A stretch of DNA of 64,000 bases from Selaginella tamariscina (Eukaryota; Streptophyta; Lycopodiopsida; Selaginellales; Selaginellaceae), in NCBI GenBank assembly GCA_003024785.1, contig PUQB01000252.1, positions 1 to 64,000 on the forward strand, written 5' to 3'. The translations under genes and the position numbers were made by a program. The notes under the pieces were generated by a model. That model made no database searches and was not told the DNA's origin. It worked only from the letters and a program-made list of their open reading frames with translations. Positions 3,894-57,608 of the stretch are shown piece after piece; position 1 is the stretch's first letter, and every line of letters begins with the position of its first letter.

Positions 3894-3974
3894 GTAAAAT
3901 CTTATATATGTGTATAGTAATTTCTGTGCATGTATGTGCAAATTCAGTAGGATTTCTCTCTATTCACAAACGCA

Positions 3975-4294: not shown

Positions 4295-7200
4295 GATAAT
4301 ATGTATAATACTGGAGATAAAATATGTCTTCTTCGGAACAACGAGATAGTTGGCACTGGAACTGTGGAAGTTCGAGATGATAATGCATCATGTCACAATA
4401 TTGCCCAAGGATCTTGTGTGTACGTATGGGTGAACACCATTTTCAAGCATGTTGAGGTTCGGGAATGGAATTTGAGGAGGGTTCTCCTGTATTGTGGAAT
4501 TTGGATGAAGTCAAGGCTGACACAGAATATACAGAGTCACAAACAAACAGTAGCACGAGTTTTCCAGATGATGGCTTGCCTGCTGTGATGGATGAGGTGA
4601 TTCTCTTTCTTCATGAGAGGTTGGGAGAGGCATCATCACAGCTATAAATCCAATGGAAGCAGTGTCAGAAGAGAAACTAGGGTCCGACTTCGTGGGTGTA
4701 GTTGTGACAGAGGTTTCACCTAATGGCACTTTGCATCCTGGATCCCTCGTGAGGTGGCGAACATCTGAATTAAGACGGCAAGATGGTTCAACATATTCTG
4801 GGTTGGATTTCAATAATAACAACCCGGAAGAACAACTCATATTTGAAGAGGTTCCTTGCATTGGTCCTATTGTAAGAAAAAGGCGATTCATGGGTTGCAG
4901 ATCTTCCCCTGCAAGTTTCAGCAAGAGGGTAAAGATGGATCCTACATCTTCCGAAAGTGTTACGAGCATTTCCACGATTGACTGCTGCAAGAAGAAGTGT
5001 TGTCAGATGGCAGACCGGAATGAAATTACCCAATGTAGACATGTCTTTCGTACGCTCACCCAAAAGCAAAGGCATGAGTTTGTATATGCTGCACTAACTG
5101 GGTGTATTGATGGAATGGCCTCGGACACAGGTTATCAGAGTACATCCATGGTATTTAATAAGGTGGCCATCTGCTTCAAAGCTTGGTACAGTATATACGG
5201 GATCCCAAAGACCACGTTCTACCGTCGGAGGGATGAGTGGCTAGATGGAGCGCGAACCTCAGTACATGGGAACACTCGCTTGGTCAAAACCCGCTCTCAC
5301 ATTATGGCAGCCATAGAGATACTCAAGGCTTTTGTGGAAGCAAATGCAGACAGGATGCCTCACAAATGCCGAACCACAAATGCAGGGGTCAGGGAAAATC
5401 TCAAGGTTTTGCCTTCAATCTACACTCAATTGAAGCTGTGTGAACATGTGAACAAGTGCCTCATTTGATGGGGCTGCAAGCAATCTGCACTGGTACCTTC
5501 AACAACATATGGAATACTCATTTTAAGGATGTGGAGATTGCAAAACACTCTAGCTTTTCCAAGTGTGACACTTGTACATCATTGAAGGCTGCAGAGGCTT
5601 GTGCAAAAACCTTGGTGGAGATCACTGCCATTCAAAAGAAGATGGAGGCCCACATGATTGCACAACAAAGTCTCAGTACTATGCACACCGCATGCTTTCT
5701 GTGTCACGCCCATCAGAGTACCTGTGCTTGATCCATGACAAGATGGATCATTCAAAGACCAGCATTCCAAAGCTCGTTGCAACACCAAAGTGCCTTGGAA
5801 ATGTCATGAAACTTCCGATTTCATTGACAGGTGTGCTAACACATGGACACGGTTGTGAGTCATATGGACACTTTTCACTTCCACATTGGTCTAGCGACTC
5901 CAATTTCACTATTGGGTCGGCCATGTGTTTCAGAAACCTTGAAGCCCACTCACAGACAAGTCCTATCAGTGATCTCAAAGTGAAGAAACAACACCTTCAA
6001 CCTTTACATAATGCTCTCATGAACACGTCTGCACTTGAGGCTACTTGGGAATATGAGAGGCATTGTCAGCAGCCTGCACAAAAAACAGATGGCCCTGTTG
6101 AGAGTTCAGGTTCAGTGGAGGGATCTAGCTCAAATAGTGTACATGTGTCCTCAACATCAAATAAGCTTCCTCGTCATTTGCTTTTACAGATGGATAATTG
6201 TGCAGGCGAGAACAAAAATAGGTAAATCATTTTACTTAAGGGTTTCTCAAGCTCATACTTACTTTTATTTTCTAGATATGTGCTAGCATACTTGTCAATG
6301 CTTGTTGCCAAAGGTGTGTTTGAAACAATCACGCTCAGTTTCTTATGGTTGGTCACACTCATGAAGATATTGATGCGTTCTTCAGCAAGGTCTCCAACTC
6401 TACAAAAAGGACAAGTGCACTTACCTTACCGCATATGATGAATCTTTTTGAAAATTGCATCTCCAAAAAAAGTTGTGCTTTGCTTGTGACTGAGGTGCCA
6501 GACTTCAAAAAATTTCTCAAGGAGTATATAAAAGAGGGAGTGATTCTTTAGTTGGTCACCTTGTGCCGCTACAATTCTTTTTCTCCATACGAGATGGTAT
6601 ACCTATTATGCAGTACAAGTTACGGCCATCAGAGCAGGAGTGGTTACCGAAAGAGGGTTAATGCTCTTCAAAAGTGGAGAGAATGGAAAGCCACTTCTCC
6701 CAGAAGGACAACCAGACCCTATTCCATTGAGTGCCCAGCTCAAGGAACAAGAGGTTATTATTGATGGCATCAAAAAATATGTGGCATGGGTTCAAAAATC
6801 GATGCCAAAGAATTCTGATAAGGCAACTGGTTACTCAGAACTATATAAGCATGTGGTCGACTATTGGGAGACTGTTGTTCGAGAGTTGGAAGGGCCTACT
6901 GTCACAAGTACAGAATTGCAACACCCTTTTTGGCCTAAAACAAGGTGGCGAGAGGAGATTGAAATGACATCACTGAGCACAGACGACATAGAAGCCAGTA
7001 GTGATGTGGAAGTGCAAACCCCACACTTTGTTGGACAAAGGAACCAAAAACCTAAAGCATACTTTGATTGCTGCCAGGATCTTCAAAAACTAATGATGGT
7101 TCTCATTACTCCAGATGCGTCATATAATCAGCCTATTTGGATGGGTCAAATTATCGACACACCTGAAGTAATCACAAAAAATAGTATTGTTAAGGTTGCA

Positions 7201-7401
7201 TGGTTCAAACCACAAAAAAGGCGACACGAGAAGGAGAGCGAAAGATATAATGGATGCCTAGAGAAAACATGGTCTCCCAATCAAAAAGACCCAGCATGTT
7301 TTATAAATGTTAAATCCATTCGATATGGGTGGATGTCAAGAAGCGTTGATAAAGTCACGATTAACAAAACTGCAAGGGAATGTATGTTTTCTGAAGCTTA
7401 A
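4295..7401 (+). CDS. DUF7869-like protein, probable RNase H-fold nuclease cargo gene
   Basis: The coding part begins after an AG acceptor at 4293-4294; the first usable ATG is 4301. The order of motifs matches a family known mainly from transposon-like genes of plants and animals: an N-terminal region with GTGTVEV and QGSCVYVWV, a KTTFYRRRDEW helical part, FSKCDTCTSLK (Cys-x2-Cys), IHDKMDHSKTSIPKL, GVLTHGHG, LQMDNCAGENKNRYV and LMVGHTHEDIDAFFSK. The conserved acidic residues in DKMD, MDN and HEDID suggest an RNase H-like active site (inference). An intron of about 54 nt at 6222-6275 joins NKNR to YVLAY. The C-terminal part has QPIWMGQIIDTP and a basic segment. Frame changes near 4475, 4650, 5455, 5730 and 6550 break the reading frame. 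Biochemical function is unknown. Confidence 0.6.
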
Positions 7402-7849
7402 AGCAATTACAAAATTATAAAATATCATATATTTAATATTCATAATTATTATAAACTCTTTAATAATAGTACCAAATTGTTTACTTAACTATATAAATTT
7501 AAAAAATGATATGGAAGATTGACTATATTATTATAGGATTTATATATATATATTATTACTACTACAAATTTTTAATTAATAATGTTATATTTAAATATTA
7601 ATATTTTAATAACAACATCAATATTTATATAATGTACCTCTTATGCTCTTCCTTAATTGTTATATTAGGCAATATATTATATAATTTAATACTTCTACTT
7701 TTATAATGTTATTAATTTTTGTTCAATGAATGCTATAATTTATTAAAGGGTAGAATACAAAATAGAATATTCTAAAGAATATTCTTTTCAAACATATATT
7801 CTAAAGAATATTCCTTTAATATTAGAAAATGCTAATTAAATAGCTAAAA
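7402..7849. repeat. AT-rich right end of element 1 with GAATATTC terminal motifs
   Basis: 7402-7735 is gene-free AT-rich sequence. From about 7740 to 7830 there are repeated palindromic GAATATTC blocks in the pattern AGAATATTCTAAAGAATATTC. On the minus strand this reads AAGAATATTCTTTAGAATATTCTA, close to the left end of element 2 near 16298 (AAGAATATTCTAGAATATTCTA). I take it as the right terminal inverted repeat of element 1. The exact last base and the target duplication are not resolved. Confidence 0.55.
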
Positions 7850-11765: not shown

Positions 11766-13612
11766 ATGGAGGAGAGCTTGTTCGACGACGAAGAGCGTCC
11801 CATCAAGAGAAAGGTACGTTTCCATCCGGCAGGAGAAGAGAGAGTGAAGAGGCAGCAGCTGGAAGGTGCTGAGTTCTTTGTGGTTCCTGAAGATTACCAG
11901 CGCGGGCAGATTGTGGCAATGGATCAAACAGATCAATCCGAATGTTCGGGCCCGTCTTACTGCTCAGGGTTGGATGGCGATGTTGGGGAATGTGAGAGAT
12001 GGGCCTCTTCCGCATGAATTCGACTTGCACTTTCGCGAGGCTCCCTCCAGTTGTGCGGCCAGGGAGCAGGAAGGAGTTGAATGGATGGACGATCTAGTCT
12101 CCCGGATAGATAACTGGAGCGATGCTGTTTTGACGCCAGACAATGTTATCACGCCCTGCCCTGGCCGTTTGTGCCCGTGGATGATTCTACTGCTGCTGCT
12201 TTTCTCTCCTCCGCTAGTAATTCAAGTTGCGTGTCTTGGACTTGGGTGACAACGACACACTCCAGTCTATCTGGGGTAAAGAGAGCGCGGTGAAGATCTG
12301 GAAAGGGAATGCTACAAGAGCTTTGGGAGGGCGGAGTGAAACCGTTGTTTGAGCAGAGTCGTCGCAGGGGGCCGTCTTGGTTATGGGAAACCCAGGCATT
12401 GGAAAAGACAGGTTTCTTGCTCTACGTGCTCGTCATCTTACTCCAAAGAGAAGAGGAAAGTCTTGTTGCGAACAAAAGGTGGTTGTCTTTACTACTTCAA
12501 TCCAGATGCAGCTGGGAACTACATACTCCATGGCTGGGAGTTATAGCGAGGCGAGGCTGGAACAGGGATCGAGACCTTGTCTTTCTGGCGGACGGAAAGC
12601 TATCGGACGTGCCCGTTTTTTCTTGGAAGGCGCTTCTTGCGTCTACACCTCTCCGGAGCAACTACAAGGACTACGAGAACGATGCTGCGTGCAGGAAGTT
12701 CTTTCTACCGGTTTGGTCTAGCAGGGAGCTTTCTCTTCTGAGGCAAGTAGTATTTCCGGACAAGGATCTGCAAGCTACGAATGAGAGATACAAACAGTGG
12801 GGTGAATCCCGAGATATGTCTTGGAGATCACCTCGGATGATTTGGCAGGCATCATTCGGAGAATGCCAGCCTTGGCAGACGTTGTGAGCCGCATCTTCTG
12901 GTGCTGCCGAGTCGGATCATCCAAGTCATAAAGCCTCTATCTACGAGTCCGAGACAATTATAAGAGTTACGACTTGCAGTATGCTTCTCTTTGTGAGGAG
13001 GACCGTGTATGAGAAGCTTCACAGGGATCAAGTCAACACGCTCAGAGCCTTTGGTATCTTTCAGGGGAACTGCACTGCAGGGATTCGGTGCTTTGAAAGG
13101 AGGCATTTTACAAGAACACTTCAGAAATATCTCGCAGAACACCAAGCTCTTCAGAGTGTGTGAGGTCTTTGAAGACATGGCACTAAGTCGACAGGACCTT
13201 TAATGCAGGAGTTTGCTTTCGGCCAGCCTGCTACAGTTTTGGAGCGTTGATGACTTGACTTCACCGTACGTCTATGACTCTATAGTATGCCGGAGAACCC
13301 ATCGAGGAGACCATTGATGCTCTGCTTCTAACCAAGAACGCTGCAAAACAAGATATTCTGCAGCTCTTTCAAGTGACGGTGAGCTCTGGAAGACATGGCC
13401 ACGGGCTTAAATACAACGGACTCTTGAGAGTGATGGACAAGTTTAAGGTTCCTCCAGAGCGAGTGGAAGTTTACATAGTTACTACGAACGATCTCTTTGC
13501 AGATGCAGGCTGGCAGAACTGGAGGATCAAGAACAATAATGTTTTGGCTGACAAGAACATCAAGAAGCGGCTCATCGGTATTCGGCAGTTTGCATTGGAT
13601 TCTAACGCGTAG
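11766..13612 (+). pseudogene. Crinkler/RHS-like P-loop NTPase with nuclease-like C-terminus, frames broken
   Basis: The start is the ATG at 11766, just after a TAGGGTTT motif. A leader (RDGPLPHEFDLHFREAPSS) is followed by a Walker A, VMGNPGIGKDRFLALRARHL, near 12380. A middle block has FSWKALLASTPLRSNYKDY and KFFLPVWSSRELSLLRQVVF, then ERYKQWG with a shifted IPRYVLE near 12800; a GGIPR motif after the NTPase is typical of the RHS/Crinkler group. The C-terminal block (13325-13612) has LQLFQVTVSSGRHGHG and DLFADAGWQNW, matching the restriction-endonuclease-like fold of that group. In oomycetes and fungi such proteins include secreted cell-killing effectors; their role in plants is unclear. At least five frame changes split it, either decay or base-level error. 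No N-terminal Crinkler ubiquitin-like domain is seen. Confidence 0.65.
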
Positions 13613-15750: not shown

Positions 15751-16194
15751 TAAAAACTGGGAGAATATTCTTCGGACAGCTCATTTTTTGGGGGCAGCCA
15801 ATGCTCTCTTCTTCGCCCGCAGGTTTGTCGGACGATCTGTAAATAGAGGCGGCCAACAGGGGCTATGGATTCCGAGAGGAGATTTTGCAGGCTAGGATGT
15901 GCTGGAACGAATTGTTTTCCTCGCTTCCGGTATGCAGATCGCTTCTGTTTCATCTATAAGTGTGTTTCTCTTTCTGGTTTAGGTGCGGGACGTGTGCGCC
16001 TTGGCAAGTTGTTTCAAAATTCTGGTGGAAGTTTTGCTGCCGCGATGGGATTTGTTCAGGCAGCGACAGTTCTGTCCAGACGAAAGCGAATGAGGAGCTT
16101 AAGCTGACAATCACAAGATAGACAAAAGTCGCTTTTCCGAATGTTTTTTTCTGGGGGCACGGCGAAATTCGAGCGCAGGTCAACGAGCTTGACC
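15751..16194. other. Flank between NDPK gene and MULE element 2
   Basis: This is the 5' flank of the minus-strand NDPK gene. A plus-strand open stretch at 15865-16107 shows no recognisable domain. No repeat is seen until the GAATATTC motifs start near 16200. Confidence 0.4.
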
Positions 16195-16335
16195 AAGATT
16201 CGAATATTCTTGAATATTCGTTATTCCGTACGATTTCCGTCTAGATATTCGAATATTCTGTACGGAAATTTTTCGTACTGCCTTCCAAAATTTTCAAGAA
16301 TATTCTAGAATATTCTAGTGCGGCGCCGCATACAA
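16195..16335. repeat. Left terminal inverted repeat of MULE element 2
   Basis: Several GAATATTC or TTCGAATATTC blocks and the motif ATTCCGTA lead inwards to AGAATATTCTAGTGCGGCG near 16307-16325. The reverse complement of 31035-31105 shows the same order: GGAATATTCC, ATTCCGTA, GAATATTCG, then AGAATATTCTGGTGCGGCG. The inner 19-mers differ at one base. This pairs the two ends as imperfect terminal inverted repeats. The outermost base and the 8-11 bp target duplication expected for MULEs are not clear because the motif is itself palindromic. Confidence 0.65.
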
Positions 16336-16489
16336 AATATGGTAGTATATTTTTGTTGTATTTAAAGAAATATAGTTAAATTACTTAAAAATATGTAAGC
16401 ATAAAATTACCATTAAAATTTATATTGAAAATTATAAGTTTGAAATAACAAATATAAAACCGAAGCTGTTTGAAAACAAACCAAACACA

Positions 16490-19400
16490 CTAAATAGATG
16501 GTGGAGGATGGAGGTTCCTTGGTAGCATCAATAAAGAACTTAGTTCACGGGGTGCAAGTGTACGACGTTGCAAATGCTTGACAACTCGAGGATCAGCTCC
16601 CAGTACACGCTTGTAAACAAAATACATATGTTTGCAAGGCACCCACTGACGACCATTGCAGAACTCCGAGCATGAACAAGATGGTGCGCTACAAATGACA
16701 ACCCAAGCAGATGTATGGTCGTTGTCACATACTCTGAAGCGAATGCATGTTGGAGGATCAACCACGTCAACTTCTGCGACATATGCTCCCAACGTCAAAC
16801 ATGCTTCAAAACTTACCTGTTGTTTCTTAGACATCCCTAAAGGTGTTCTTGTTGCACGACCACTTGCAGGAACAGGAGGTCCACGAAATTGTGCAGGGGG
16901 TGTTGAAAATCCAGTGACTCCAACAGGAACTGAAGGAACATGAGGTGTTGAAAAACCTGGCACTCTGCATGAGCTGAAGGAAGCCCAGCTAGCATAAAAC
17001 CTGATCTTGCCAGATCATTGATCTCCATTGCTATCAGCTTCGTGCCCACTTGAACTTTCCAAACCGAGGTAGAAGCTGGCGGAGAAACAATAGTTGGTCT
17101 TGGATGTCTGTTGCAAAGCATGTTTGTTGGACAAAAATACATCATTTGTGAGCGAAAGCATTCTTCACCAGTTTCTTTGTCATTGTATCTGATCCTTCCA
17201 AAAAAACAAGGAGCAGCCACTCGATTACCACTAGGACTGATCTTTTTGTCACAAGCACTCCACTGACCTCCTGAAGAGGGAAAGCCTGCCAGACATTTCA
17301 CAGAACTTCTTTCACCACATCTTCTAATCGCCCATTGTCCAGGTGTAACATCTTGTTCTTCAACCAGAACATATTCTTCATGTTCTTCTGCAAGTTGAAA
17401 ATCCAATCGTCGCTTCCGTCTACACTGTGTTGGAATAACCTGTTCACTATAGAAGATGTCCGGTCGGTGGGATCGTTCAGCCTCTGACCCCATATTTCTT
17501 TGCACAGTGCGATGTTCAACATTCGTGGCAGCCACAAAAGCAGTATCCTGCATGCTTGATGGAGCAACATCTTCAACTAAGTCGATGATAACCTTTGCTG
17601 TAGGTGTTGTTGAGTTAGCATTTGACATTCTTCTCTCGAACCTTGCTGAGAGCTCCTCTGAAGTCGGCCCGGAACCACTATACCTTCCATCTCTAAAAGC
17701 CTTCACAAGAGCACATTGTCGCACTGATTCAGTCAGGTCGTGGATTGTAGCTTGGTACAATGAAATGTATTTTGAATCTCTAGCCCTCCTCCATCTTCCG
17801 TGAACAGACTCCGACTGGTTTGTCATGGGCACAACCCTTGCAGCATTCTCCGGCATGCTTTCAAGAACAACATTTGAAATATGATTCTTCTGTCTTTCCC
17901 ACCATGAAAACCACGTCTGCATAACTCCAACATCCTTCACATTTTCATTCCAAAAGCGGAAAAGATTATTTTCAATTTCTTCACGATCAGTTGTTGATGT
18001 GGCTGTTGGCCATGATCTCAAAAGTTGAAGATGTTGTTGTTGATGTTCAAGAGGGACCCACTTCCTTGTCACACGTTGTATGGCTTGTTCATAGTGAAAG
18101 ATACAGCTCCGTTCACGTCCAGGAATTTCTTGGCCATTAAAGAACACATTCCTAATTGCTTGCCAGATCGCTCCTGCTTCATCGGACATAAACCCAGCGA
18201 ACTGCACATTGTAGATTCCCTTCTCGGAACAGACATCCAACATAGCACGAAAAAACTTCTCCACAGCTCCAGCCGTTTGTCTCTTCATGTCACCATAAGC
18301 AATGGTGGATAATCGGCGCACACTATAAAATAATCAAAGAGTTAAGCAAACAACAAAAGATAACATCTTACTTTGGGTCGTAAACATGCAATGCCAGAGT
18401 GATCCACTTATCAACAACACGGTGTGTGTGATCAAGTAGAACCCAACTCTTCTGCAAAGGGCCAAGAGGAGGTTGGCACATCCTTACATAATCGATTCCA
18501 GAACCTGGCCCTGAAACCGTCATCTTAAAAACTAATGCCTGGTCGTCTGAACCACGGAAATTCATCCCAGGATAGTGAATCACGTGGATGAATGGGATAG
18601 ACAACCTTCGTTTCAGCTCCAATAATCCATCAATATTCTCTGGCATTTCAGCAGCAGTTCTCTTTGCGGACGCTACCCATTGACGAACTCTGCATCAAAG
18701 GTATTATCAAAGAATGCTCAACAAAATAAAACTCTAATTGTACCTTCGATTGTTTGATAATGGTGCAAATGATCCATGAGCTTATCCCAACTTCCAGGCT
18801 CAGAATTATCTAATAGGAAACCAAAGATAGCATCTTTACATGCTGCCATTTCGATGACTCTTGGACTAGCTCTGGGAGTTCTTTCTGTTGCATTCTGGAC
18901 CGCCATATGCATTTCTTCTTTGTTCGATGCAGAAACACCATCACCCACTGGATGTGAATGTTTTCCCTGGTGGATAAACAATCTAGTCTTGGTTATGTCG
19001 TCTGGGAAAACGCAAACGCCACAGCATGACAAACTTCAAGGCACAATGGATTTTTTTATATCCTTTTGCCAGTTTTGAAGGTGGGAAACAATACATCCTT
19101 TCCATTTAGTGCAGTTCGGAAATCCTGCCTTAGAAGCAGGGCAGTCCGGGTTGATACAGCAAAGGCTCCCAACACATTTGCTCCTGGACACCCTCGCTTG
19201 AAAATTCCAGTTGCTGGTCGTTCCTGCTGTCCAGGTATGTCCATCCTCTTTCCGATTCATTCCTTTGTATTTGTATTCGGAAGGAGGGAGCTCAAAAATG
19301 ACATCCCCATCATACGCAATAGGCAATTCATTTGTATGAATGATCGTGGAACCCTCGATAAGAATTCTTCCTTTTTGCAGGTATTAGAAGTGAAAAGGTC

Positions 19401-19678
19401 CTTCAACGTTGAGTATTCAGAGTCAGAAGCAACGACAAGCTTAAACAATGGTCCTTCATCCGGTAACAAAACATATCCTGGATTATCCTTCCCTCCAGCA
19501 TCTTGGTCCTCGTTTATTTCGATCTCTAAAGCAGATTGCCCATGAAGAAGTTTAAAAAGGCGAACACTTTGCCAATCAAAAATGCCAAAGAACGTTTAAT
19601 CTGATTAGTAAGAATGATTCCAACACCATCTATCACAGGAACATCGTGATCCAAATTGCCGTAAACAATCCTGGCCAT
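16490..19678 (-). CDS. MULE transposase, element 2
   Basis: Second copy of the transposase at 27-3231, with the same domain order: WRKY-GCM1/FLYWCH-like finger, DDE core (VLLDHTHRVVDKW, GFMSDEAGA, RSCIFHYEQAIQR) and SWIM finger (CSCSEFC...VPCKH). The start is the ATG at 19678. Differences from copy 1 are mostly small indels: an insertion of three codons (NQSES for KS) near 17812-17821, a loss near 19040-19080 that removes part of the zinc-binding region, and single-base slips at 16966, 19030, 19370 and 19595. Here the SWIM part joins its Pro-rich linker in frame, while copy 1 is shifted, and the reverse holds near 16965. Either copy as written would give a truncated protein. Confidence 0.8.
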
Positions 19679-20346
19679 TTTGCAAGCAGTTACCACAAAC
19701 GTGACAGAAAAACAACAGCATTACTTAATCATCTTTTGGTAAATATCGGATATTACCATTTCAAAAATTCACAATCATGACTCAACGTGGGCAATATTTA
19801 ATTCAAGGAAACGTATATAGATCTTAGATGCTAATATAGTATAGCACTTCACGTAGAGATAGAGCAATCTTTATTGTCTTTTAAATAAATGTGTGTCTAA
19901 TCTACATTCATCTGACATATTTATTTATGACTTGTTTATATTCTGTTAATTTATTTATATAATTATATAGTTATTTGATCCAGTATTTTATCTAATGTAG
20001 ACATTATAAATACATATTTTTACATAATATTTATTTAATTATAATAATAATATGTTTTTTAACATACAAATTTTTACTTAAATATGTGTTTGTATTTGTA
20101 TCCTTTTATATAGTACGTTATTTATTGCAAGTATTGTATATACTGTTATGGTTTGATTAAACACAGTTTTATAGTTAAGGGTCAAGGTTAAGTGTTAGAT
20201 TTTAGGGTAAAGGTTTAGGGCCGCCCATTCTTTTCTCCATTCTCCATTGTCGAGAGGGCACTTTTGTTCTTTTTTTTGCGGCCGCTCTTGTTCTCATTTG
20301 CGGCGACAGGAGGCTAGTGTGAGCATCACGGCGACATGGCTGCAGG
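19679..20346. promoter_or_regulatory. Divergent promoter and first exon, element 2 copy
   Basis: Equivalent to 3232-3893. The same AT-rich block and telomere-like repeat run (TTTTAGGGT, GTTTAGGG near 20200-20220) are kept, followed by a first exon ending ATGGCTGCAG with a GTAAAATC donor at about 20347. Here the transcript would run into a ParB-methyltransferase gene instead of the DUF7869-like gene. Retention of promoter, leader exon and donor with different downstream exons is the strongest sign that cargo was exchanged behind a fixed control region. Confidence 0.6.
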
Positions 20347-20775
20347 TAAAATCTTATATATGTGTGTGCAAATTTAATAGCAATTTCTGTGCATGTATGT
20401 GCGAATTCAGTAGGATTTCTCTCTATTCACAAACGCGCGTGCGCGTGCACACACACACCTCCGACGGCATGAGTTCTTGCTAATTTCAACAAACACACAC
20501 TCACACACACACACATTCCCTGCCAAAATCGGCAAGAATTTCTGCCGCCCAGATGGTGTAGCGGCCACACCATCTGGGCGGCAGGATTTCCTGCCGTCGG
20601 AATGGTGCGGTGGCCGCACCATCCTGGCGGCAGGATTTCCTGCCCAATTCGGCAAGAAAGTGTGTGTGTGTGTGTGTGTTTGTGCACACACACAAATAAC
20701 ATTTTACACACACGTACCACATTATGATTATACAACATTAGACTTGTATACATGTGTGTGTGTGGTGTATATATA

Positions 20776-20808
<33 letters not shown>

Positions 20809-20822
20809 AATACAGACTTGTT

Positions 20823-20884
<62 letters not shown>

Positions 20885-20963
20885 AGTATATGAATCTAAG
20901 ACTTGTATATATGAGATGATGCTTTTTCGTCTATATATACATGTGAAGAGATATGAATATACC
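20347..20963. repeat. Cargo intron 1: palindromes and long (GT/TA)n microsatellites
   Basis: A perfect 17-bp-arm palindrome (20543-20559 and 20567-20583, 7-bp loop AGCGGCC) is followed by a 9-bp-arm palindrome (20602-20610 and 20614-20622). Both are framed by copies of GGCAGGATTTCCTGCC. Then come (GT)n near 20659-20680, (TA)n near 20770-20850 and (GT)n near 20843-20881. The Gypsy insertion starts at 20964. The target copy ATACC lies at 20959-20963. Confidence 0.75.
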
Positions 20964-21362
20964 TGTCACGACCTTGTGCAAAGGGCGAAACCTTTAAAAC
21001 AAGGGTGGAACCTTGAAAGGAGGAGATTGTATTCAAGAAAGAAATGAATACAAAATGAAACACAAGGCCGAAGACTGGTGTTGAATGATTCTGAGAAACC
21101 TGGAACTGGAACCTTGTTTATATATCTGAGGTCCTGAGGATTGTATGGTCCACAACTGGTCTGGAATGTGTAATCCACAACTGGTCTGGAATGTGTGGTC
21201 CACACTGGTCTGGAACATGTGTATGAATATACGCCTTGCTGTTAATGGTGTAGTTCAGCATCCAGGATCATACGGACCAGTTGGTTAACACATGTGTGTG
21301 TTAGTCAAAAGGTCTTGGGTTCAAGTCCTATGAAAGGCAAAAAATGACTCATTATCCTTACA
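20964..21362 (-). repeat. Gypsy LTR, downstream copy in coding sense
   Basis: A 399-bp copy aligned from TGTCACGACC to ATCCTTACA. It is collinear with 26444 to about 26828 with scattered substitutions, which suggests an insertion old enough for the LTRs to diverge. It contains three short repeats of ACTGGTCTGGAATGTGT near 21140-21200 that are also present in the other LTR. Confidence 0.8.
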
Positions 21363-22587
21363 CTATCGGTGCACGTCATTGGTCCAGTTTTTGCAGGATA
21401 TCGTTGATGATGCGAAATGGCCCCAAGTGTTGATATTGCAGGATATCGTTGATGATGCGAAATGGCCCCAAGTGTTGATATTGCAAGATATCGTTGATGA
21501 TGCGAAATGGCCCCAAGCGTTGATAGTCCAGCACGTCCCTGTGACACTATCGGTGCACGTCATTGGTCCAGTTTTTGCAGGATATCGTTGATGATGCGAA
21601 ATGGCCCCAAGTGTTGATATTGCAGGATATCGTTGATGATGCGAAATGGCCCCAAGTGTTGATATTGCAGGATATCGTTGATGATGCGAAATGGCCCCAA
21701 GCGTTGATAGTCCAGCACGTCCCTGTGACAAGCTGGCCATGGCCCCAAGCGTTGATATTGCAGGATATCGTTGATGATGCGAAATGGCCCCAAGCGTTGA
21801 TAGTCCAGCACGTCCCTGTGACAAGCTGGCCAATGACGTCGGAGGAGCCACACTTGGTCACCAATTGTGAATGCTGGAGGAGAGGAACGGGAACGATTTG
21901 CAGCTTGTTGTTGCAAATCCCGAGCACATTGAAGATGATGCTGCACTTCCTCATGGACCTGTCGGAGATGCTCAACACGATCATCGGCAGCAGTGGTGAG
22001 GCCAGGAACCACGGGCAAGCTATAGGACCAGCGAGGATGAACACCAGAGAACGCAAAAAATGGCGACACACCTATGGATGAGTGTGCCGTGTTGTTGTAT
22101 GCGAACTCGGCAACAGGAAAGAGATCGACCCAATCATCTTGCAGATGAGAAATGAAACACCAGAGATGTTTTTTGCAGGATATCGTTGATGATGCGAAAT
22201 GGCCCCAAGCGTTGATAGTCCAGCACGTCCCTGTGACAAGCTGGCCAATGACGCCGGAGGAGCCACACTTGGTCACCAATTGTGAATGCTGGAGGAGAGG
22301 AACGGGAACGATTTGCAGCTTGTTGTTGCAAATCCCGAGCACATTGAAGATGATGCTGCACTTCCTCATGGACCTGTCGGAGATGCTCAACACGATCATC
22401 GGCAGCAGTGGTGAGGCCAGGAACCACGGGCAAGCTATAGGACCAGCGAGGATGAACACCAGAGAACGCAAAAAATGGTGACACACCTATGGATGAGTGT
22501 GCCGTGTTGTTGTACGCGAACTCGGCAACAGGAAAGAGATCGACCCAATCATCTTGCAGATGAGAAATGAACACCGGAGATATTGTT
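21363..22587 (-). repeat. Nested tandem duplications in the integrase 3' region of the Gypsy element
   Basis: A 45-bp unit (core GATATCGTTGATGATGCG) repeats three or more times from about 21396. On the minus strand it stays in frame and encodes a repeated LGPFRIINDILQ segment. A block of about 183 bp (21362-21544) recurs from 21545. A 415-bp block starting near 21760 is repeated at 22175 (for example 21841 equals 22256, and 22077 equals 22492). The repeats multiply the integrase C-terminal coding region and shift frames downstream. Confidence 0.8.
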
Positions 22588-25500
22588 CCAGAGCCTGAAT
22601 TGTGCGCTCCGATTGTCCATCTGTTTCAGGATGATGTGCAGTAAACAGCTTCCCGGTGATCCGATAGGATCTCGCCTCCGAAGCCGAAGTGAACTGGGGA
22701 CCTCGATCAGTGACAAGTTCATCAGGAAGACCATGAAGGCGGAACACCCCCGGTACACCAGATCTGCAGCATCAGGACCTGAACATGTCTTGTTGCAGGG
22801 AACAAAGTGCGCCATCTTAGAGAACCGATCAACAATGACTAGGACAGCATCAAACCCTCTAGAAGGCGGTAAATCCGTGAGGAAATCCATGGTGATGGAT
22901 GAATGGCCGCTGAGCAATAGGAAGAGGCTGTAGTAGTCCAACCGGTCGATGACGAGGAAGCTTTGTACTGCTGGCACATGTCACAAGATCGCACAAATCT
23001 CTCAACATACACGCGAAGCCGAGGCCACCAGAACACCCATTGTACCAGCTCGATCGTCTTTCGAATGCCAAAATGTCCTGCAGCTGTGTTGTCATGGCAG
23101 TGTTGGACAGCTCGCAACCTCAGTTCTCCGTCCGGAACATAGATTTGGATGTGGTGGTACAGCAACCCATTATGAAGATGGAAAGCAGCATAATCTCGTA
23201 GTTGTGACCCTGAAGACAATGGCTGAACTCGTCGAACATGTGCAAGGACATCACGAGCAAACTCGTCTTGAGGGAGATTTTCTCGGATTAGATCCAAAAA
23301 AAGTGTCAACTGGAGCAGAAGAACGGGAAAGCGCGTTTACCAACAACTGGTCGGAGCTCAGGATGACTTGTTCTTGTTGATCAAATCGGATTTCACCTGG
23401 TACTGGAGCTAGGTAACTGCGACGAGATAAGGCATCTGCTTTGCCATTTAGACGACCGGGACGATGAATAATCACGTATCGGAACCGGGACAAAGACTGT
23501 GCCCATCGCGCCTGACGTCGATTGAGAACTCGTGCTGTTGCCCAGTACTGGAGGTTCTTGTGATCACAATACACCTTAACCACATGCGGGGAACCTTCAA
23601 GGAATCTGCGCCACTCCTCAAAGGCATCGACGATCGCCAGCAGCTCCTTGTTGTAGACATCGTAGTTGATCTCAGGTGCAGTGAACTTGCGGGAATGGAA
23701 AGCAATGGGAAGAAGATGATCTGGACCTTCCTGGGACAACACTCCACCAATGGCGAAGTCAGAGGCATCAGCTTCCACGAAATATGGCTTCGCAGGGTCA
23801 GGATGGATAAGAACAGGTGCCGAGGTGAACGCCTTCTTTAGGAACTCGAACGCCTCCTCAGCCTCAGAGGACCAGACAAATGGAACATCCTTGCCAGTCA
23901 ACTTCGTCAATGGCAATGCAATCTTGGAGAAATCCCGAACGAAACGTCGATAGAAGTTCGCAAACCCGAGGAAACATCGAACATCACGAACATTTGATGG
24001 TCTCTCCCACTCCAATACAGTCCGGACTTTTGCAGGATCCATGTGAACACCTTCAGCTGAAATGATGTACCCCAGGAACTCGACAGACTGCTGACTGAAA
24101 GAGCACTTCTCCAACTTGGCAAACAAGTGGTGCTTCCGGAGCCTCTCCAAGACTAACCGTACATGCCGTTCGTGTTCTTCTCGAGTCTTGGAAAATATCA
24201 GGATGTCGTCTAGGTACATGATGACAAACAAATCCAAGAAGTCCCGAAAATATCGTTAGCCATGTGCTGGAACACAGCAGGTGCATTTGTCAGGCCGAAC
24301 GGCATTACTACGTACTCGAAATGTCCGTAGCGTGTACGGAAAGCTGTTTTCCACTCGTCCCCTTCTCGAATTCGGATGAGATTGTACGCTCCTCTTAAAT
24401 CGATCTTTGTGAAGTACCGGGCACCAGAAAGACGTTCGAGCATGTCGGAGACGAGCGGGAGAGGATACTTGTTTGGAATGGTGACCTTATTCAGATCTCG
24501 GTAGTCCACCACGAGCCGGAGACTTCCATCCTTCTTGAAACAAAGAATACTGGAGCACCAGCCGGTGATCGCGAATGACGGATAAATCCGGTGACAAGAT
24601 TCTCCTCAATGTATTTCCTCAATGTCTCCAACTCTGTTGGTGAGAGACCGTAAATGGGACCGGAGGACGGCTGCTTACCCTCAACGAGATCGATAGGACA
24701 GTCGTACTCACGGTGCGGTGGCAAGGCAGAAGCTTTCTTTTTGTCGAAGACGTCTGCGAAATCGGCATACTGCTATGGTAAGGCAGGAGGAACAGAAACA
24801 TCCTTAGCAGAGTAGGGATAGACTTTATCGCGAACACGGATGCTGGGTCATGTCGGCTATCTTTCTTGAACTGCTTCAAGGTGATATGCGAGACTCGAAG
24901 TGGAGGAGGAACTGGAACAGGATCGGAATCAAAGAGTGTGGCTGGAGTTGAAACAGCTGGGAAACTGTTCATGAAACGTTCTCTCCAACCAGATCCACCA
25001 ACTCGATCCACGGCAAACCAAGGATAATCGTAGAGTCTGGAATAGAAACAACACTGAAGGAGATGTTGCACACAGCACCGCAAGCAACGACCTCAACAAC
25101 TCCGTGTCATTTTACCGCTCCAGATTTGATATCTCGTCCATCAACGACCCGTACAGAACCAGGAGTCTTCAAAGGATGTAGACGGATCCCGTGCCTGACA
25201 GCAAAATTCTTGTCGATGAAATTTGCGTTCGCTCCGCTATCCACCAAAGCTTTACCAGAGAACTCCACCTCTGGTGTCTTCAGCTGCACCGAACATGGAA
25301 CGGCTTGCACACCTTCGTGGATGGAATGGATCCAAGATGAGGAAGGAAGATGTTATGAGTGAAGAGCCTTGAGGAACATGAGTTGTTCCACGGCAATCCT
25401 ATTCGGGCTGGATCTTCTCGTTTCCCGCAGACAGCAAGGGCCACTTCACGAGCTTGTTTTGGACGTCGATGACAATTCTCCAACTTGTGGTACGGGTCCC

Positions 25501-26405
25501 CACAGTACAAACAAAGCTTGTACTGAATCCGCTTCTGACGTTCGTTGGCAAAAGCTTGCCTCGGCGTGATCGCCCTAATTCCATCGGGGATGGTTCTACT
25601 GAGGAAGATGATGAATCAGCAGATGAGGGAACAGGGACTGCAGAAATGGAAGAAGACGGCACCAAGAAGAAAGAAGGATGCCGACGTTCTTGTTTTTGCT
25701 CGATCAACCGGTTGTCACAACGAATTGCCAACTCGATCATGCTGGTGAGGGTTTCCGAAACCGCAAAATTCAGCAACATGTCTTTGACCTCGTCCTGCAA
25801 CCCCGACCAGAAAACCTCCTTGAGAGCACGATCTCCCCATGTGACATCACAAGCAAGAAGTTGAAACTTCGATGCGTACTTGCTACCGACATACCCCCTT
25901 GGTGAAGCTGACGGAGTTTGGTGATGGCAGCACTCTCACGATCCACGTCACTGAACATCGCCGTGAACCGTTCCACAAACTCGTCAAAATTCCCAAGGAT
26001 CGGATCATTGTTCTCCAGCAAGGCTGAGAACCATGAAAGAGCAGAACCAGAAAGTAGCGACCCGATCAATCCAACCTAATGGGTTCTGTGCTGTAGCGCC
26101 TCGGCTGCATCACGATCCGCAGATAAACTTGATTGAAAAACCTTGGAACTTCGATCGGGTACCATCAACTTTTCGGGCATGCTGATCTTCGGCTCTGGAG
26201 AATTCGCACGCTGTCGGAGCTGATCATTCTCCAGATGTAGTTGTTCGAGCTGCTGCTGGAGGGCAGCAACTTGCTCATGAAAGCATGCTCGGACATGATG
26301 AGTCGAAGAAGAAAAAATCAAAAAGAAAAAAGAGAAGAAAATCAGAAAAGAAAAAGAAAAGAAAAATTGAAAAGAGAGAAAGAAAGAAAATGGGATCAAT
26401 GACAA
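22134..26405 (-). pseudogene. Gypsy gag-pol polyprotein, frames broken
   Basis: Reading leftwards: a coiled coil (EQVAALQQQLEQLHLENDQL, about 26240), gag core (ALSWFSALLENNDPILGNF, FWSGLQDEVKDMLLNF), zinc knuckle (YCGDPYHKLENCHRRPK, about 25490), protease (ALVDSGANANFIDKNF, about 25250), RT ([33 protein letters not shown] near 24210), RNase H (PYFVEADASDFAIGGVLSQ, CDHKNLQYW), then integrase with [32 protein letters not shown] and a GDQVWLL...RLGPFRI tail. The RT/RNase H frame is long and intact (23251-24237). Breaks lie between gag parts near 26070 and 25770, within RT near 24210-24520, and in integrase near 22900-22560. The tail has the layout of chromoviruses, but no chromodomain can be confirmed. 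Confidence 0.85.
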
Positions 26406-26443
26406 GCGAAAAGAAGTTTGTCACTACCTAGAATTATTCAAAC

Positions 26444-26995
26444 TGTCACGACCTTGTGCAAAGGACGAAACCTTTAAACAAGGGTGGAACCTTGAAAGGA
26501 GGAGATTGTATTCAAGAAAGAAATGAATACAAAATGAAACACAAGGCCGAAGACTAGTGTTGAATGATTCTGAGAAACCTGGAACTGAAACCCTGTTTAT
26601 ATATCTAAGGTCCTGAGGATTATATGGTCCACAACTGGTCTGGAATGTGTGATCCACAACTGGTCTGGAATGTGTGGTCCACACTGGTCTGGAACATGCG
26701 TATGAATGTACGCCTTGCTGTTGATGGTGTAGTTTAGCATCCAGGATCATACGGACCAATTGGTTAACACATTTGTATGTTAGCCAAAAGGTTTCGGGTT
26801 CAAGTCTTATGAAAGGCAAAAAATATTCAGAATCTCTCTCTCTCACACATACCAAACAACATTACACATATATAAATACACACACACATATTTATATATG
26901 TGTAATCCCATGATCCTTACAATACACAAACAACATTACACATATATAAATACACACACACATATTTATATATGTGTAATCCCATGATCCTTACA
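26444..26995 (-). repeat. Gypsy LTR, upstream copy in coding sense, with microsatellite expansion
   Basis: Matches 20964-21345 up to GAAAGGCAAAAAAT. Instead of the short end seen in the other LTR there are about 165 bp of CT/CA/TA repeats containing two copies of an 80-bp unit that ends CCCATGATCCTTACA (26920 and 26995). The end chosen here gives ATCCTTACA identity with the other LTR and an ATACC target copy. An end near 26828 with no target duplication is the alternative. Confidence 0.6.
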
Positions 26996-27000
26996 ATACC

Positions 27001-27233
27001 CATATTCAAAATCTCTCTCTCTCACACAGACACATCACAACAACATTACAACACATACACAACATATATGAGCACATACACAAACAACATTACACATATA
27101 TAAATACACACACACATATTATATATGTGTTGTTGTTTGTGTTGTCTATATATATTGATAGGCATACATATATAGTAAATGTGTGTCCATAAATTAAAAC
27201 AACTCACACACACACTTTCAGTTGTTGTAATTG
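27001..27233. other. Remainder of cargo intron 1 (CA/TA-rich)
   Basis: CT, CA and TA repeats, including another copy of the AACATTACACATATATAAA unit found in the Gypsy LTR expansion, end in a CTTTCAG...TTGCAG acceptor at 27233. No coding signal is seen. Confidence 0.6.
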
Positions 27234-30200
27234 CAGAATGAGGCAAAGGCAAAGAGGCAAGAGAGTAAGAGACTGCGAGATAAATACAAGACTTTGACAC
27301 TTCAGGAACATATCGTCCAAGAAGCTCTTGCAGATATGGCTCCAAAACCTCGTGGCAAGAAAGGAGGCCGAGGAGCCAAGCAACAACTGCAGCGCGAAGA
27401 GATGATGCCGACGAACAATGAACCTGTGGATAGTTCGCAAGTCATTGATGAACATGCTGTGGTGAGTGAATGGATGCCTAGAAATAGGGAGATCGCAGGA
27501 AGCTCTGCAGAACACGGTAATGCAGAGGAAGTACCGGACATTGATCTTGGTAGTAAAGTTCAAGAAGAGGAAACTGGATGCTCCTAGGATGTTGCAGAAT
27601 CATATGCAATTCCGGAGGCTGACACTTGAGGCTCCATCCAAGCTTCTTCGGATCTTGTTATTCGGTATGACACGGATATTGACACATCGCTACAAGGACG
27701 AGACCACTACGTTCCAGTTGAGCTTGGCGAGCCTCCGCGTATCCCGGTTCACAGGTTGCTCCCACACCAACGTTTGAGGAATGTCACTAAGGACGGCGTG
27801 AAAGACCTTGTTGGATGGATTAGAGCTGAAGGATTTTACCAGGAGACGTCAGTGTTCACCTTATCTTTCGGACCACAGCTGAGTGCAGACGAACGCCGAA
27901 GTTGGAATGAGTCAGAAGCACAGGTCGATAAGAGTTTGAAGCGGATTTGCATAAGCCAGCATTTTCTGCATGTATCGGTTTCTGAAAGATGCAAAGTTTT
28001 GGTGTGGGATGGGAATCATCGTCGGGTTGCTTTGAACACTTTGCTTGCTGAAGAGCCAGGTTTGAAATGGACTTTGCGTGTACGTGCAACACTCATAGCA
28101 TCCACAGCGCAGAGGAGAAGAGACTAATCGCTGCTTGCAATCGGTTGAATGAGTAAGTGACTTGTTTGTTTCATTATTTAAATACTAAATAAATGTTGTT
28201 TTGTTTTGCAGAGCAACTGCTCGTGTGGTTCCTACAACAATCATTCACACCTTGCAGTTCTTACGGAATTGTTGTGTGAAGTCTGCAGATCTTTCTACCG
28301 ATCATGTTCTTCGCGGATGCCGGAGGAAGATAGAAAAGCTGTGGAAGTGTGGAGATCGAACAGAAAAGAAGACGTTTGGTACGAGTATCCAAAGACGACA
28401 TTGGTGAAGATTTTTTGGGAGGTAATCTTTTCTTCTTCTTTTGATTGTTTTTTGATTTTCGGTTTCTTTTGCAGAATCAACTGAAACAAAACGCTACAAA
28501 ACTTGCGAACAGAAAACCAAACCAGACAGAATCTCAGATCCTCTCCAGCGTTTACAAGACATTCACAGTTCGGATGAACAAATTCCTCACCATTGCTGAT
28601 CCGGCGGTCGGCGAAGATTGGTTCAAGGCGATCACAGATATCACTATCAAACCATCAACGAAGCAAATAACTCTGGAGAAGCTTCAAATGCTCGCGAAGT
28701 CCCAGCTTCCTTCCAACGTCAAGGTTGATATCCTTGGAAGCTTGTGCACATTCAAGAACGTGGCGTTCTTGAGAAGCTGGTGAACATGACGGAGAAAGAC
28801 AAGAAGGAAGGTGTCACCGGCTGGCCTGACAAGGACTTCATCAAGTTTTTGCACATCTTTACTTACTGGTTCCAGGTAATTTAATATTTATATTTTTCAT
28901 TTTTATTCGTTTTATCGTGCCAGGTCGGGAGGCAGCTAAAGAGCTTTTGGTCAGCATGTAGAGGAGTTCATGGCATGGTATACGAAGATGCACAATGAAA
29001 TTAAGTTGGATATGTACCAGAACATGCTCGAGAACAAGGAGTTCGGTGCGACAATTCCACCTCGACTATTTGAGCTGGAAAAATCTGCAAAAAGAATGGC
29101 ATTCAGGCAAGTTTTTTTTTTTTCTTTACAGATTTTTATCTATTTTTGCAGGTTTTTAAAATGGAAAAACGATGCACTCCCTGAAGATTTCAAAAGTGGA
29201 TGGATGTTACCAAGGATTCTAGCATGTGGAGCCGGTTGTTACGTGATATCAGTGATTACGAAGTGGAACACTGTCCTTTCTGGCTGGATTTCCTTCCTGG
29301 TGACTGTCCCGAATGGGAGATGGCCAGCTATAAGATACACAAGGATGATCGGCGAGAGCTATTATGGAAGAACGACAGTGCTGCAAGGAAGCTCCATGTG
29401 AAGATGGATATCAGGTATGCTAGATCGGCGAGCAAGGTCAGCAAGGGACAAGCTTCTTCTTCAGCCCCATCCTTCATCTCGGCTGGATTGGAAGAAGATG
29501 ATATGTTGAGGATGGTGATGCCTGAGAAGGGAAATGGAAGCTGGGAAATCATTCATGCAGATTCAGAGAACCTTGCAGTCCAGTACTTCAAAGCCGGAAG
29601 GCCTTTTCCGTCGGATTGAAGGAGCTTGAGGATTGGATCGTGAGTCACAAGTCAAGTTGGACTATTCATGTGTTTGGTGCGAAGCCTCCACCAAAATGCA
29701 TCCAGGGAGCTGTTGATCTCGTTGTCATCGACCCGCCTACCGGATGCGTTGCTGAGGCAGGCGGGATGGTGGATCAATACACGAAGTTCTCGGATGCTTT
29801 GCTGAAAACTTGGTGAACCTTGCTTTCGGGATATTAGACAGAGCTGGCCATGTGGTGTGTTTGTGCTACCGGATGATGTTCCAGCTTTGAAGAACACTGC
29901 AGAAACTTGCAAGCTAAAGTTTCTGCAGATGAGTTATGTGCACACGACAAGGTCATGGGGATACCGTTTCTCTAGAAAGGTAATTCTTCTTTTTGAGAAT
30001 GTCATTTTTTAATGTTTTTTTTTCAGGAAAGCATCATTGCCATGTGTATTTTTGGTTCCCCCTACTCTAAGGTTGCCAAGAACAAGGAGATCTTGGACAC
30101 TCGCTACACTCTTCTTTTGATGAGCCAGAAGATTTCCAACTCCCATGGTATAATGTTGTTTGTTATTTCTCATGTTCTAATATTGTAACTTTCAGGATTT

Positions 30201-30848
30201 CAATTGGCCCGAAATCTCCCAAGTTGTTTGCGATGCTAGTGGAGAAGCTCACAAAGCCTGGTGGAACTGTCGTGGATCTAACAGTGGGAACCGGTGCTAG
30301 TATTCTTGCAGCTTTTCACACAGGGAGACATGGTTATGGAATCGACATCAACAAGGATCTGGTTTTAGCAGCCAGAGATGTCTTCAGGAAGGTCATTCCA
30401 AGTGTTACAGCAGCTGAAGGTGGTGGGGATGATCAAGTTGTTTCCATGATTACTCCTTTTGATGAGTGGAAGAGGGCCATGGAAACAGAAGCACAGGATT
30501 TGCCTTTGGCTAGCGACAACGATGGAGACCAGGATCCGCCTTCTCGAAACGACGAGGATGTTGTTACGAGAAGTCCGTGGAGCACAACGACGAGTCATCA
30601 GATGAGTCAGCAGAAGAGAGATCATACGAGTCATCAGATGATGAGTGAGATTTGTTTTATCATTTCTTTGGTTTTAAACTTTAATATGTTTTCAGTATTG
30701 TTTACCAGACTACGCTAATCAGATGGCAAAGAAAATGGTTGAAGAGTTCGAAGTTTACGACAGACAGATTTTGGAGAAACGTTCACGACACCGTAACAAT
30801 GCATTCATTAACGACGAGGCACTGGCTGGTGGAAACGAGTCTTCATGA
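27234..30848 (+). CDS. ParB-like domain fused to beta-class N6/N4 DNA methyltransferase
   Basis: Predicted nuclear protein of MULE element 2. Reading begins after the acceptor at 27233; the first ATG in that frame is 27336 (MAPKPRGKKGGRGAK, a basic tract). From about 27700 a ParB-like domain reads IPVHRLLPHQRLRNV, LVGWIRAEGFY and KVLVWDGNHRRVALNTLL. A helical middle follows (KKEGVTGWPDKDFIKFLHIF). The methyltransferase has motif IV VVIDPPTG (about 29728), GHVV near 29850, then motif I TVVDLTVGTGASILAAF with GRHGYGIDINKDLVLAARDV (30265-30380). Motif IV before motif I is the beta-class order typical of bacterial modification enzymes (PF01555). The usual aromatic residue after DPP is Thr here. 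Introns are T-rich (near 28152-28210, 28422-28474, 28876-28923, 29110-29151, 29981-30028, 30149-30196, 30652-30700). Frame slips near 27590, 28290, 28770, 29175, 29618 and 29815. Stop TGA at 30846. Confidence 0.75.
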
Positions 30849-31034
30849 TTGAGTTATGTTTTTATTGTAATTTTTATTTAGTTTGATGCGGTATTTATAT
30901 AAAAATATAATTATAGTTATAAATATAAATATTAAAAAAATAAAAACATAAATATAAATATAAATATATAAATATATATGTCAGATTAACCCCCAAATTT
31001 GTGAAACTTTGACACATTACCGTGCCGCCATGAT
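30849..31034. other. AT-rich spacer before right end of element 2
   Basis: A gene-free AT-rich stretch with repeated ATAAATATAAATAT, like the spacer inside the left end (16340-16460). It ends in a GC-richer GCCGCC...CCGCCCGCCGCACC block that leads into the terminal repeat. Confidence 0.5.
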
Positions 31035-31105
31035 TGCCCGCCCGCCGCACCAGAATATTCTTTATACAAAACGAATATTCTATACGGAATGGAATATTCC
31101 AATAT
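31035..31105. repeat. Right terminal inverted repeat of MULE element 2
   Basis: CGCCGCACCAGAATATTCT is the near-perfect reverse complement of the left inner repeat near 16307-16325. It is followed outward by CGAATATTCTATACGGAAT and GGAATATTCC, matching the ATTCCGTA and GAATATTC blocks of the left end. The exact outer edge is uncertain by about 10 bp. Confidence 0.65.
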
Positions 31106-31975
31106 GATGGAAATCAGTACGCTCGGCAAATGCGCTCGAGGAAATGTCAAAACCCTTTTTTTCTGTCTTGTCTTCCCGTGGACCTCATGGAAATGTGTGA
31201 TAGGGATGGAGAACAGCATACGAGCATTTGCACTTCGAAATGGCAAGCAGGGCAAGAGCCGTGATGCGAGGAGTCCTTGGAAGTTGCTAATTATCTCAAA
31301 GCCATGGAGCTGCTCTGCAAGAGAAAACATTGGCTTCTCACGAACCTCCTGTCGCCAACGCTCAGCGTCCTTGTGAATTTCATCGGCCTACACTACTCGC
31401 TTGTCCATCTAAGAATCCAGATCGTAAAACCTCTAGATACATGTCTGTTCTCGTCCAGGATGATGCTGTAAAGAAGGCTCTTGTGAGCAGCCACATTTCG
31501 GACAGACACATTTGCCTGAGATGGTGGAGCTTGGGCGGCTGGTCGAATGGATTCCGCAGGACATGAAGATTGCCGTCGTTGTACGAACTAGCTCACCCTC
31601 AACAACAGTTCCTGTTCAAGGTCATGGAACGAGGAATCGTCCACGAGGTGCTTTGTGTACAGATTTCTGCACATATTAAGACGAGCGCCTGGGTATGCAT
31701 TAATAAGCATATATAATTAAATTGTAAATATATTTCAGCATTTTAAAATCTCCGTTTTGTAGTTGTTTTTGTTTCTGAATTTGTTTTTTTTCTTGTTTTT
31801 GTTTTTCTGTTATTTTTGTTCTTTTCTTTTCTTTTTTTTTTTTCAAATCAGCGAGTTGGAACTTTCGACCCGTGGAAATGGACATTTTTCCATTCCACAG
31901 TGTGGATCAATCTGTTGCGATTCCACACGCGAGTCTCATTATACATTTTGATGGTCACGGTGTTGGATCAGCCTG
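31106..31975. other. Stretch without a recognised gene
   Basis: Short plus-strand frames (31089-31376, 31330-31566) look more coding-like than chance but match no family I recognise. 31745-31850 is a T-rich tract (TTTTTGTTTTT repeats) with a downstream TTTCAAATCAG acceptor-like end. Possibly remnants of a small spliced gene. Confidence 0.3.
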
Positions 31976-57585: not shown

Positions 57586-57608
57586 TATATGACCCATGTT
57601 TGTAGTTC

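Follow-up and report, generated by a model that had tools for sequence, protein, structure and literature searches.

Why should a plant genome carry many copies of a gene whose product looks like a fusion of two prokaryote-type parts, a ParB-like stretch and a DNA amino-methyltransferase (MTase) domain? The question is raised by a stretch of 64,000 nucleotides from Selaginella tamariscina (assembly GCA_003024785.1, contig PUQB01000252.1, positions 1 to 64,000, forward strand; hereafter the window), in which such a ParB-MTase gene is the second gene of a DNA transposon at 16153-31155 that resembles Mutator-like elements (MULEs). The transposase gene and the ParB-MTase gene travel together as a unit; purifying selection acts on the second of them, and both occur as a pair in two deeply diverged families of elements. 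We give roughly even chances to the reading that the ParB-MTase gene is an accessory gene of an apparently autonomous, recently active MULE-like transposon, and that its product acts on element DNA by marking or clamping it.

The borders of the element had to be settled by its other copies alone, because tests on the single element are suggestive without being decisive: alignment of the whole termini in the window is matched or exceeded at 10 of 2000 random positions, and 101 of 3815 random region pairs pass the same criteria of a 9-bp duplication plus matching termini. Locus L009, a frame-intact copy on contig 1 of this genome, aligns with the window on both sides of a Gypsy long terminal repeat (LTR) retrotransposon, which sits between the two genes in the window and is absent from L009; window positions 16153 and 31155 correspond to L009 751 and 9654, which bound an 8.9-kb unit containing both genes and no Gypsy. 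Both genes are likewise present in all the full-length copies inspected (L009, L013 and L016), whose ends fall 0-3 bp from the borders inferred for the window, and flanks vary among copies. The blocks common to the two ends are short: GGG, TCGAGCGCA standing in register, and a core of 18 nt that is inverted. A further shared block, ATTCNGTACGGAA, was rejected, since its 8 matches against 4.25 expected are not above chance. Target-site duplications could be counted in 13 copies with both ends (L010, L012, L015 and L019 were left out, an end being missing or altered). They measure 9-10 bp in 6 of the 13 (the window, L011, L017, L022, L023 and L024), with an exact length uncertain by 1-3 bp because in some of these copies the repeat extends into a run of G or C at the terminus, and are at least 6 bp long in 8 of the 13; among 156 mismatched flank pairs, none has 9-10 bp and one has at least 6 bp.

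Searches of the source assembly (300.7 Mb) gave at least 165 matches to the last MTase exon (best 150 of 961 candidates scored), of which 37 share an identical score and have no stops, at least 150 to the ParB exon (best 150 of 836 candidates scored), 47 at one identical score, and at least 92 to the transposase (best 86 of 2092 candidates scored). Neighbours were counted for 86 of the 92 transposase places, 132 of the 150 ParB places and 131 of the 165 MTase places, second fragments having been dropped by hand. A divergent ParB or MTase exon lies within 20 kb of 78 of the 86 transposase places listed, the ParB exon lies within 6 kb of 72 of them (median 3.2 kb), and at 124 of the 132 listed ParB places the MTase exon follows on the same strand, no more than 12 kb downstream. 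Relative to L009, seven of the 15 other fetched copies carry no substitution in ~1,035 MTase codons: the burst of amplification is recent.

The copies also allow selection on the two genes to be compared, using 16 fetched copies and the window, with expectations drawn from the same change spectrum. In the MTase gene the unique changes are 25 synonymous (14.4 expected), 23 non-synonymous (32.3 expected) and 0 nonsense (1.2 expected), with omega ~0.41 and p = 0.0012; in the transposase, to which L010 contributes 86 codons and L012 none, the corresponding counts are 23 (20.3 expected), 51 (53.0) and 4 (4.7), with omega ~0.85 and p 0.28; changes were counted against one reference, off-tree, and both omega values are a first estimate. 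At face value, the accessory ParB-MTase gene is more constrained than the transposase. As a separate observation on these copies (L009-L024 and the window), 61 of 78 unique substitutions in the transposase gene are C>T or G>A, the pattern that loss of methylated cytosine would give, while only 14 of 48 in the MTase gene are of these two kinds.

A sister family (family 2, the window's element belonging to family 1) was first met as a remote relative of the MTase end within one fetched stretch. It is represented by C224:26904-27089 and by 149 other places that all have the same score over 62 residues (best 150 of 1100 candidates), and is itself a large, recent amplification. Two 9.9-kb copies have the same layout, a divergent transposase gene and a ParB-MTase-like gene; their proteins, read across frame changes, show 41% identity to family 1 over 588 residues of the transposase, 28-46% over other stretches of it, and 24-43%, by stretch, in the ParB-MTase-like gene. 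The pair has been kept in both of these deeply diverged families, and therefore the pairing of the two genes is old.

What kind of protein does the second gene encode? A first-pass annotation, made from the letters of the window, had described a ParB-like domain fused to a bacterial-type beta-class MTase. All of its motifs are indeed found on the + strand in the order it gave, among them DGNHRRVALNTLL at 28008-28046 and GRHGYGIDIN immediately 3' of DLTVGTGAS, and the protein runs from a ParB-like stretch through a middle part to a permuted MTase domain in which motif IV precedes motif I. The MTase half of the description stands above the Pfam cut-off and the ParB half falls below it. Joined with X, the exon pieces of the window score 28.3 bits with PF01555 (N6_N4_Mtase), above the gathering score of 26.7 (E 2.1e-6), the frame-intact L009 protein scores 34.2 bits (E 3.3e-8), and the sister family reaches 37.9 bits when pieced and 38.6 bits in direct translation. 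A single phrog_67 (DNA methyltransferase) alignment covers motif IV and motif I, in that order, both in the window pieces (E 2.8e-9) and in the L009 protein (E 2.3e-10). Against the Protein Data Bank (PDB), a two-family profile finds the beta-class adenine MTase MboIIA at the top (E 2.4e-6), followed by 2zie, CcrM, DpnA and RsrI at 1e-3 to 3e-3. PF02195 (ParB), the profile that the annotation had named, gives no match in the ParB-like part of either the window copy or the L009 protein, and the sole ParB-like match is to PF14072 (DndB, a ParB-like family), below its cut-off in the window (E 0.0031) and in L009 (E 7.1e-4, 19.2 bits against 29.1). Both families have DGNHR, which fits the P-motif Box II arginine pattern, G-x-H-R. 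The role of this arginine is described in a 2025 survey (PMC12704722), in which DndB figures as a ParB-like protein and fusions of ParB with N6_N4_Mtase are reported as frequent in phages.

The joined window protein matched nothing in a protein collection at E 0.01 (8000 candidates scored), nor did the window's MTase part at E 0.1 (5765 candidates scored); with the two-family profile, 5338 candidates were scored and 6 proteins reached E 0.1, namely one close relative (P0001) and five remote PF01555 proteins at 23-26% identity (P0002-P0006). P0001, a protein of 135 aa on a contig of 1,565 bp from a different data set, matches L009 at 79% over 139 columns, so that the family exists outside this assembly or in divergent form. 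The five remote proteins have DPPY and an odd motif I (DLCMRHG), and a C-terminal CGTPGC stretch is present in 3 of the 5. None of the viral contigs matched the ParB part, which was the only query used there, and phage records gave no match or matches at chance level only.

In L009 the gene is read without breaks over seven exons (L009:5713-9144) as a protein of 1042 aa, with six introns of 47-59 nt, five GT-AG and one GC-AG. The sister family keeps intron positions 1, 2, 4 and 5, introns 3 and 6 being absent, and it keeps 2 of 2 intron positions in the transposase, all as judged by eye from donor and acceptor sequence. Frame, splice sites and the kept positions make it probable that the exons are joined by splicing, so that the earlier claim of a gene spliced by introns finds agreement in the gene structure: six introns in the clean copy and 4 of 6 positions kept in the sister family. 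The window copy itself has two in-frame stops and at least 9 frame changes. Against L009, its MTase gene shows 25 substitutions (14 synonymous, 11 non-synonymous) and 29 codons hit by indels (the method gives 5 when L009 is compared with itself), and the one stop codon counted is the reference's own end; the window transposase, compared with L022, has 4 substitutions and 17 such codons (method background 1); and the two transposase-half copies within the window differ by 15 substitutions and 21 indels. Such an excess of indels over substitutions makes error in a long-read assembly likelier than decay, and we regard assembly error as the simpler cause of the breaks, real frameshifts being possible. 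A PPR gene elsewhere in the window (57606-59552) is also split over several frames, which suggests indel errors in the assembly; the idea that the window copy is a pseudogene is weakened by both observations. Coordinates are collected in Table 1.

Table 1. Features of the element and its surroundings in the window.
Feature	Position	Strand	Remarks
Left target-site duplication TTTTTTTCT	16144-16152	.	identical to 31156-31164; 10 bp if the adjoining G is counted
Left terminal region	16153-16337	.	five GAATATTC palindromes; border = L009 751; same layout in other copies
MULE-like transposase gene	~16490-19680	-	three exons, limits approximate
Nested Gypsy LTR retrotransposon	20963-26824	-	LTRs 20963-21345 and 26443-26824 (95% alike); does not belong to the MULE
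ParB-like/N6_N4_Mtase-like gene	27238-30648	+	seven exons; frame broken in the window copy
ParB-like (DndB-like) part	27630-28124	+	box DGNHRRVAL at 28008-28034; PF14072 sub-threshold
Intron 1	28153-28211	+	GT-AG
Introns 2, 3	28422-28474, 28876-28923	+	
Intron 4	29107-29151	+	GC-AG
Motif IV region VVIDPPTG	29721-29744	+	reads DPPT rather than DPPY
Introns 5, 6	29980-30026, 30148-30195	+	
Motif I DLTVGTGAS	30275-30301	+	taken as S-adenosylmethionine-binding signature
Right terminal region	31034-31155	.	three GAATATTC palindromes; GAATATTCT[AG]GTGCGGCG common to left end, inverted
Right target-site duplication TTTTTTTCT	31156-31164	.	
Second transposase-half copy, same family	1-4083	-	~98% alike, 16.46 kb away

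The palindrome GAATATTC is found 15 times in the window, where 1.54 are expected: 5 at the left end of the element, 3 at its right end, 3 near 7.8 kb and 4 elsewhere. In L009 all 8 occurrences within the 8.9-kb element lie no more than 190 bp from an end (0.23 expected, 200 simulations), and across eight inspected copies the layout is kept save for one lost site in each of three. In the two fetched copies of family 2, the left end has one or two GAATATTC and the right end two; in one of these copies, L039, a further two lie immediately beyond the left border as mapped. Elsewhere in the window, a gene at 4617-7401 with a DUF7869 domain (PF25273, E 5.1e-12 on 5569-6222) adjoins the transposase-half copy at the window's start, and together with the GAATATTC cluster at 7765-7813 it is perhaps another element with similar ends; the ParB-MTase half of that transposase copy was not found within 20 kb. 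Open reading frames at 11848-12887 include a P-loop-like GNPGIGK stretch and have no Pfam match; they may resemble Crinkler-type NTPases.

Several results weigh against our reading of the pair as transposon and accessory factor, and they concern the element as well as the protein. Five of the 13 copies (L014, L016, L018, L020 and L021) have no target-site duplication, and a divergent transposase lies within 20 kb at 74 of the 131 listed MTase places, the transposases counted being the best 86 scored. The MULE profile PF10551 stays below threshold on the cut-out domain of family 1 (E 0.013, 16.4 bits against 27.6) and has no match on the whole family 1 transposase or on that of family 2. The ParB-like part has no Pfam match in family 2 and only the sub-threshold score in family 1; it has no meaningful relative in the PDB, nor does a two-family ParB profile, and a single-sequence AlphaFold model of the window's ParB exon alone is uninformative (mean pLDDT 34.9). 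It could be the transposase, rather than the ParB-MTase protein, that binds the arrays. In motif IV, finally, family 1 has DPPT at 19 distinct fetched places as well as in the window, with NPPT in a single decayed copy, and family 2 has DLPN at 8 distinct places, so that the aromatic residue of DPPY/SPPY/NPPY is absent from both families.

As to the class of the element, a SWIM zinc finger near the C terminus is common, and not universal, in MULEs, and long terminal inverted repeats are absent or degenerate in some clades. SWIM (PF04434) comes close to its cut-off in the family 2 transposase (E 0.0016, 18.4 bits against 19.6) and has no match in family 1, of which L022 gives a frame-intact protein of 1037 aa in three exons; D and CxxH residues are common to the transposases of both families. 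The duplications have the ~9 bp expected of MULEs. With profiles below threshold and 9-bp duplications, we call the transposase MULE-like rather than proven MULE, and in that form the first-pass placement of the gene on a Mutator-like element is supported.

How, then, might the protein act? It is somewhat unlikely, in our estimate, that the GAATATTC arrays are transposase sites, or heat-shock elements for a host heat-shock factor, and that the ParB-MTase protein has other targets, such as RNA or protein. GAATATTCTAGAATATTC does fit repeats of the heat-shock consensus, nGAAnnTTCn, transposases usually bind terminal repeats, and motif IV is not a normal DNA-MTase motif; yet both genes are transcribed towards the ends, and the terminal arrays are thus not their proximal promoters. 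That the protein is an active N6-adenine or N4-cytosine DNA methyltransferase marking the element's own DNA, as the first-pass annotation proposed, we think unlikely. For such marking the annotation had suggested three roles, to resist silencing, to time transposition or to guide the transposase, each of which is conceivable. The PF01555 match with permuted motif order, the S-adenosylmethionine motif retained in both families (DLTVGTG and DIGSGTG) and the selection on the gene would all suit such an enzyme, but the aromatic residue of the catalytic tetrapeptide is replaced by T in family 1 and by N in family 2, and in the bdelloid rotifer enzyme N4CMT a change of SPPY to APPA, in which Ser and Tyr are both altered, abolished activity (PMC8885841). 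With this altered motif IV, which is the strongest point against a DNA-marking enzyme, the protein may have lost its activity, changed it or turned it on another target, and we therefore file the protein as MTase-like, not as a proven MTase.

The two remaining alternatives deny the gene a role or a place in the plant. MULEs tend to acquire host gene fragments (PMC6446971), and the second gene might be such a passenger, a captured bacterial or phage gene without a role; an omega of 0.41 with zero nonsense changes, a pair kept in two families that differ at more than half of their residues, and the 78 of 86 listed transposase places with a ParB or MTase exon nearby make this very improbable. Bacterial contamination or an assembly chimera, suggested by the bacterial-type domains and named by the first-pass annotation as a possible undoing of its own reading, has a negligible probability: it is refuted by the genomic copies, which stand at many places on many contigs, with introns, 9-10 bp target-site duplications and a nested Gypsy.

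We thus favor an accessory gene whose product acts on element DNA. Without the Gypsy, the element is ~8.9 kb long, and its two genes, both with introns, lie on opposite strands and are transcribed away from an intergenic region at the centre. The ParB-MTase protein would be nuclear, bind S-adenosylmethionine and recognise the DNA of the element, the GAATATTC arrays of the two ends being its probable sites, although that it reads these arrays is something we only infer. It might then aid mobilisation or escape from silencing, either by modifying the ends or, since its catalytic motif is altered, by binding to them as a clamp. We find it tempting to go further, to a rather doubtful proposal: that a plant MULE lineage turned a prokaryote-type fusion of ParB and amino-methyltransferase into a new class of accessory factor, an S-adenosylmethionine-dependent, catalytically altered clamp or marker on terminal GAATATTC arrays that frees the element from silencing or licenses transposition, and with which two lineages each bred large copy numbers. 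Element-borne chromatin- or DNA-modifying enzymes expose an arms race at the level of genes, and here a bacterial-type fusion has been kept through the deep divergence of two families and offers many near-identical copies for study. It makes testable either element-borne 6mA/4mC in a plant or a ParB-like clamp on transposon ends, and gives a lead on how a family of MULEs slipped its controls and multiplied in this genome.

No description of a MULE with a ParB-MTase gene was found in a limited literature collection. Iyer et al. (2016), writing on eukaryotic adenine methylation, are said to have surveyed such MTase clades and may list plant ParB fusions, and therefore the protein family itself may be in print. 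The clade table of a MULE survey (PMC6446971) includes SET, ovarian-tumour gene, PMD, DUF and FAR1 among the extra parts, and the main text of that source does not use the word methyltransferase. Among known systems, the ParB-MTase protein would be the counterpart in role, from a different protein stock, of VANC in the VANDAL MULEs of Arabidopsis, which binds arrays of a short motif and removes silencing (PMC5735166). In both cases a MULE-type element has its own accessory gene beside the transposase and a short repeated motif concentrated in its non-coding parts, and VANDAL elements, too, have poor terminal inverted repeats (PMC6446971). However, the VANC arrays described are internal, in non-coding regions and introns, whereas those of the Selaginella element are terminal; anti-silencing has been demonstrated for VANC and would here be presumed, and the likeness is one of role only.

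Other mobile elements resemble this one in what they carry. Fungal DNA transposons with TET/JBP dioxygenases, described in a paper that also reports SET enzymes on some MuDR and Harbinger elements (PMC12730594), combine a DNA transposon with a DNA-base-modifying enzyme thought to help it escape silencing, but enzyme, host kingdom and transposon lineages are different, and the abstract of that paper does not name MULEs. DIRS retrotransposons with Dam-like adenine MTases, and algal retrotransposons with DNMT, likewise bear a DNA methyltransferase; unlike the present element they are retrotransposons with Dam-like or C5 enzymes, and the account of them in PMC5890265 mentions no ParB-like part. 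The phage fusions of ParB with N6_N4_Mtase (PMC12704722) have the same domain pair on mobile DNA, but they are prokaryotic, and none of the phage records searched gave a significant match. The bdelloid N4CMT (PMC8885841) is also a bacterial-type N6_N4_Mtase in a eukaryote and is tied to transposons; in contrast to our protein, it is the product of a host gene, has a chromodomain and an intact SPPY, and helps to silence transposons. Among transposons that carry epigenetic enzymes, the Selaginella element takes its place as a real, selected two-gene system with a partner of prokaryote-type ParB/MTase fold.

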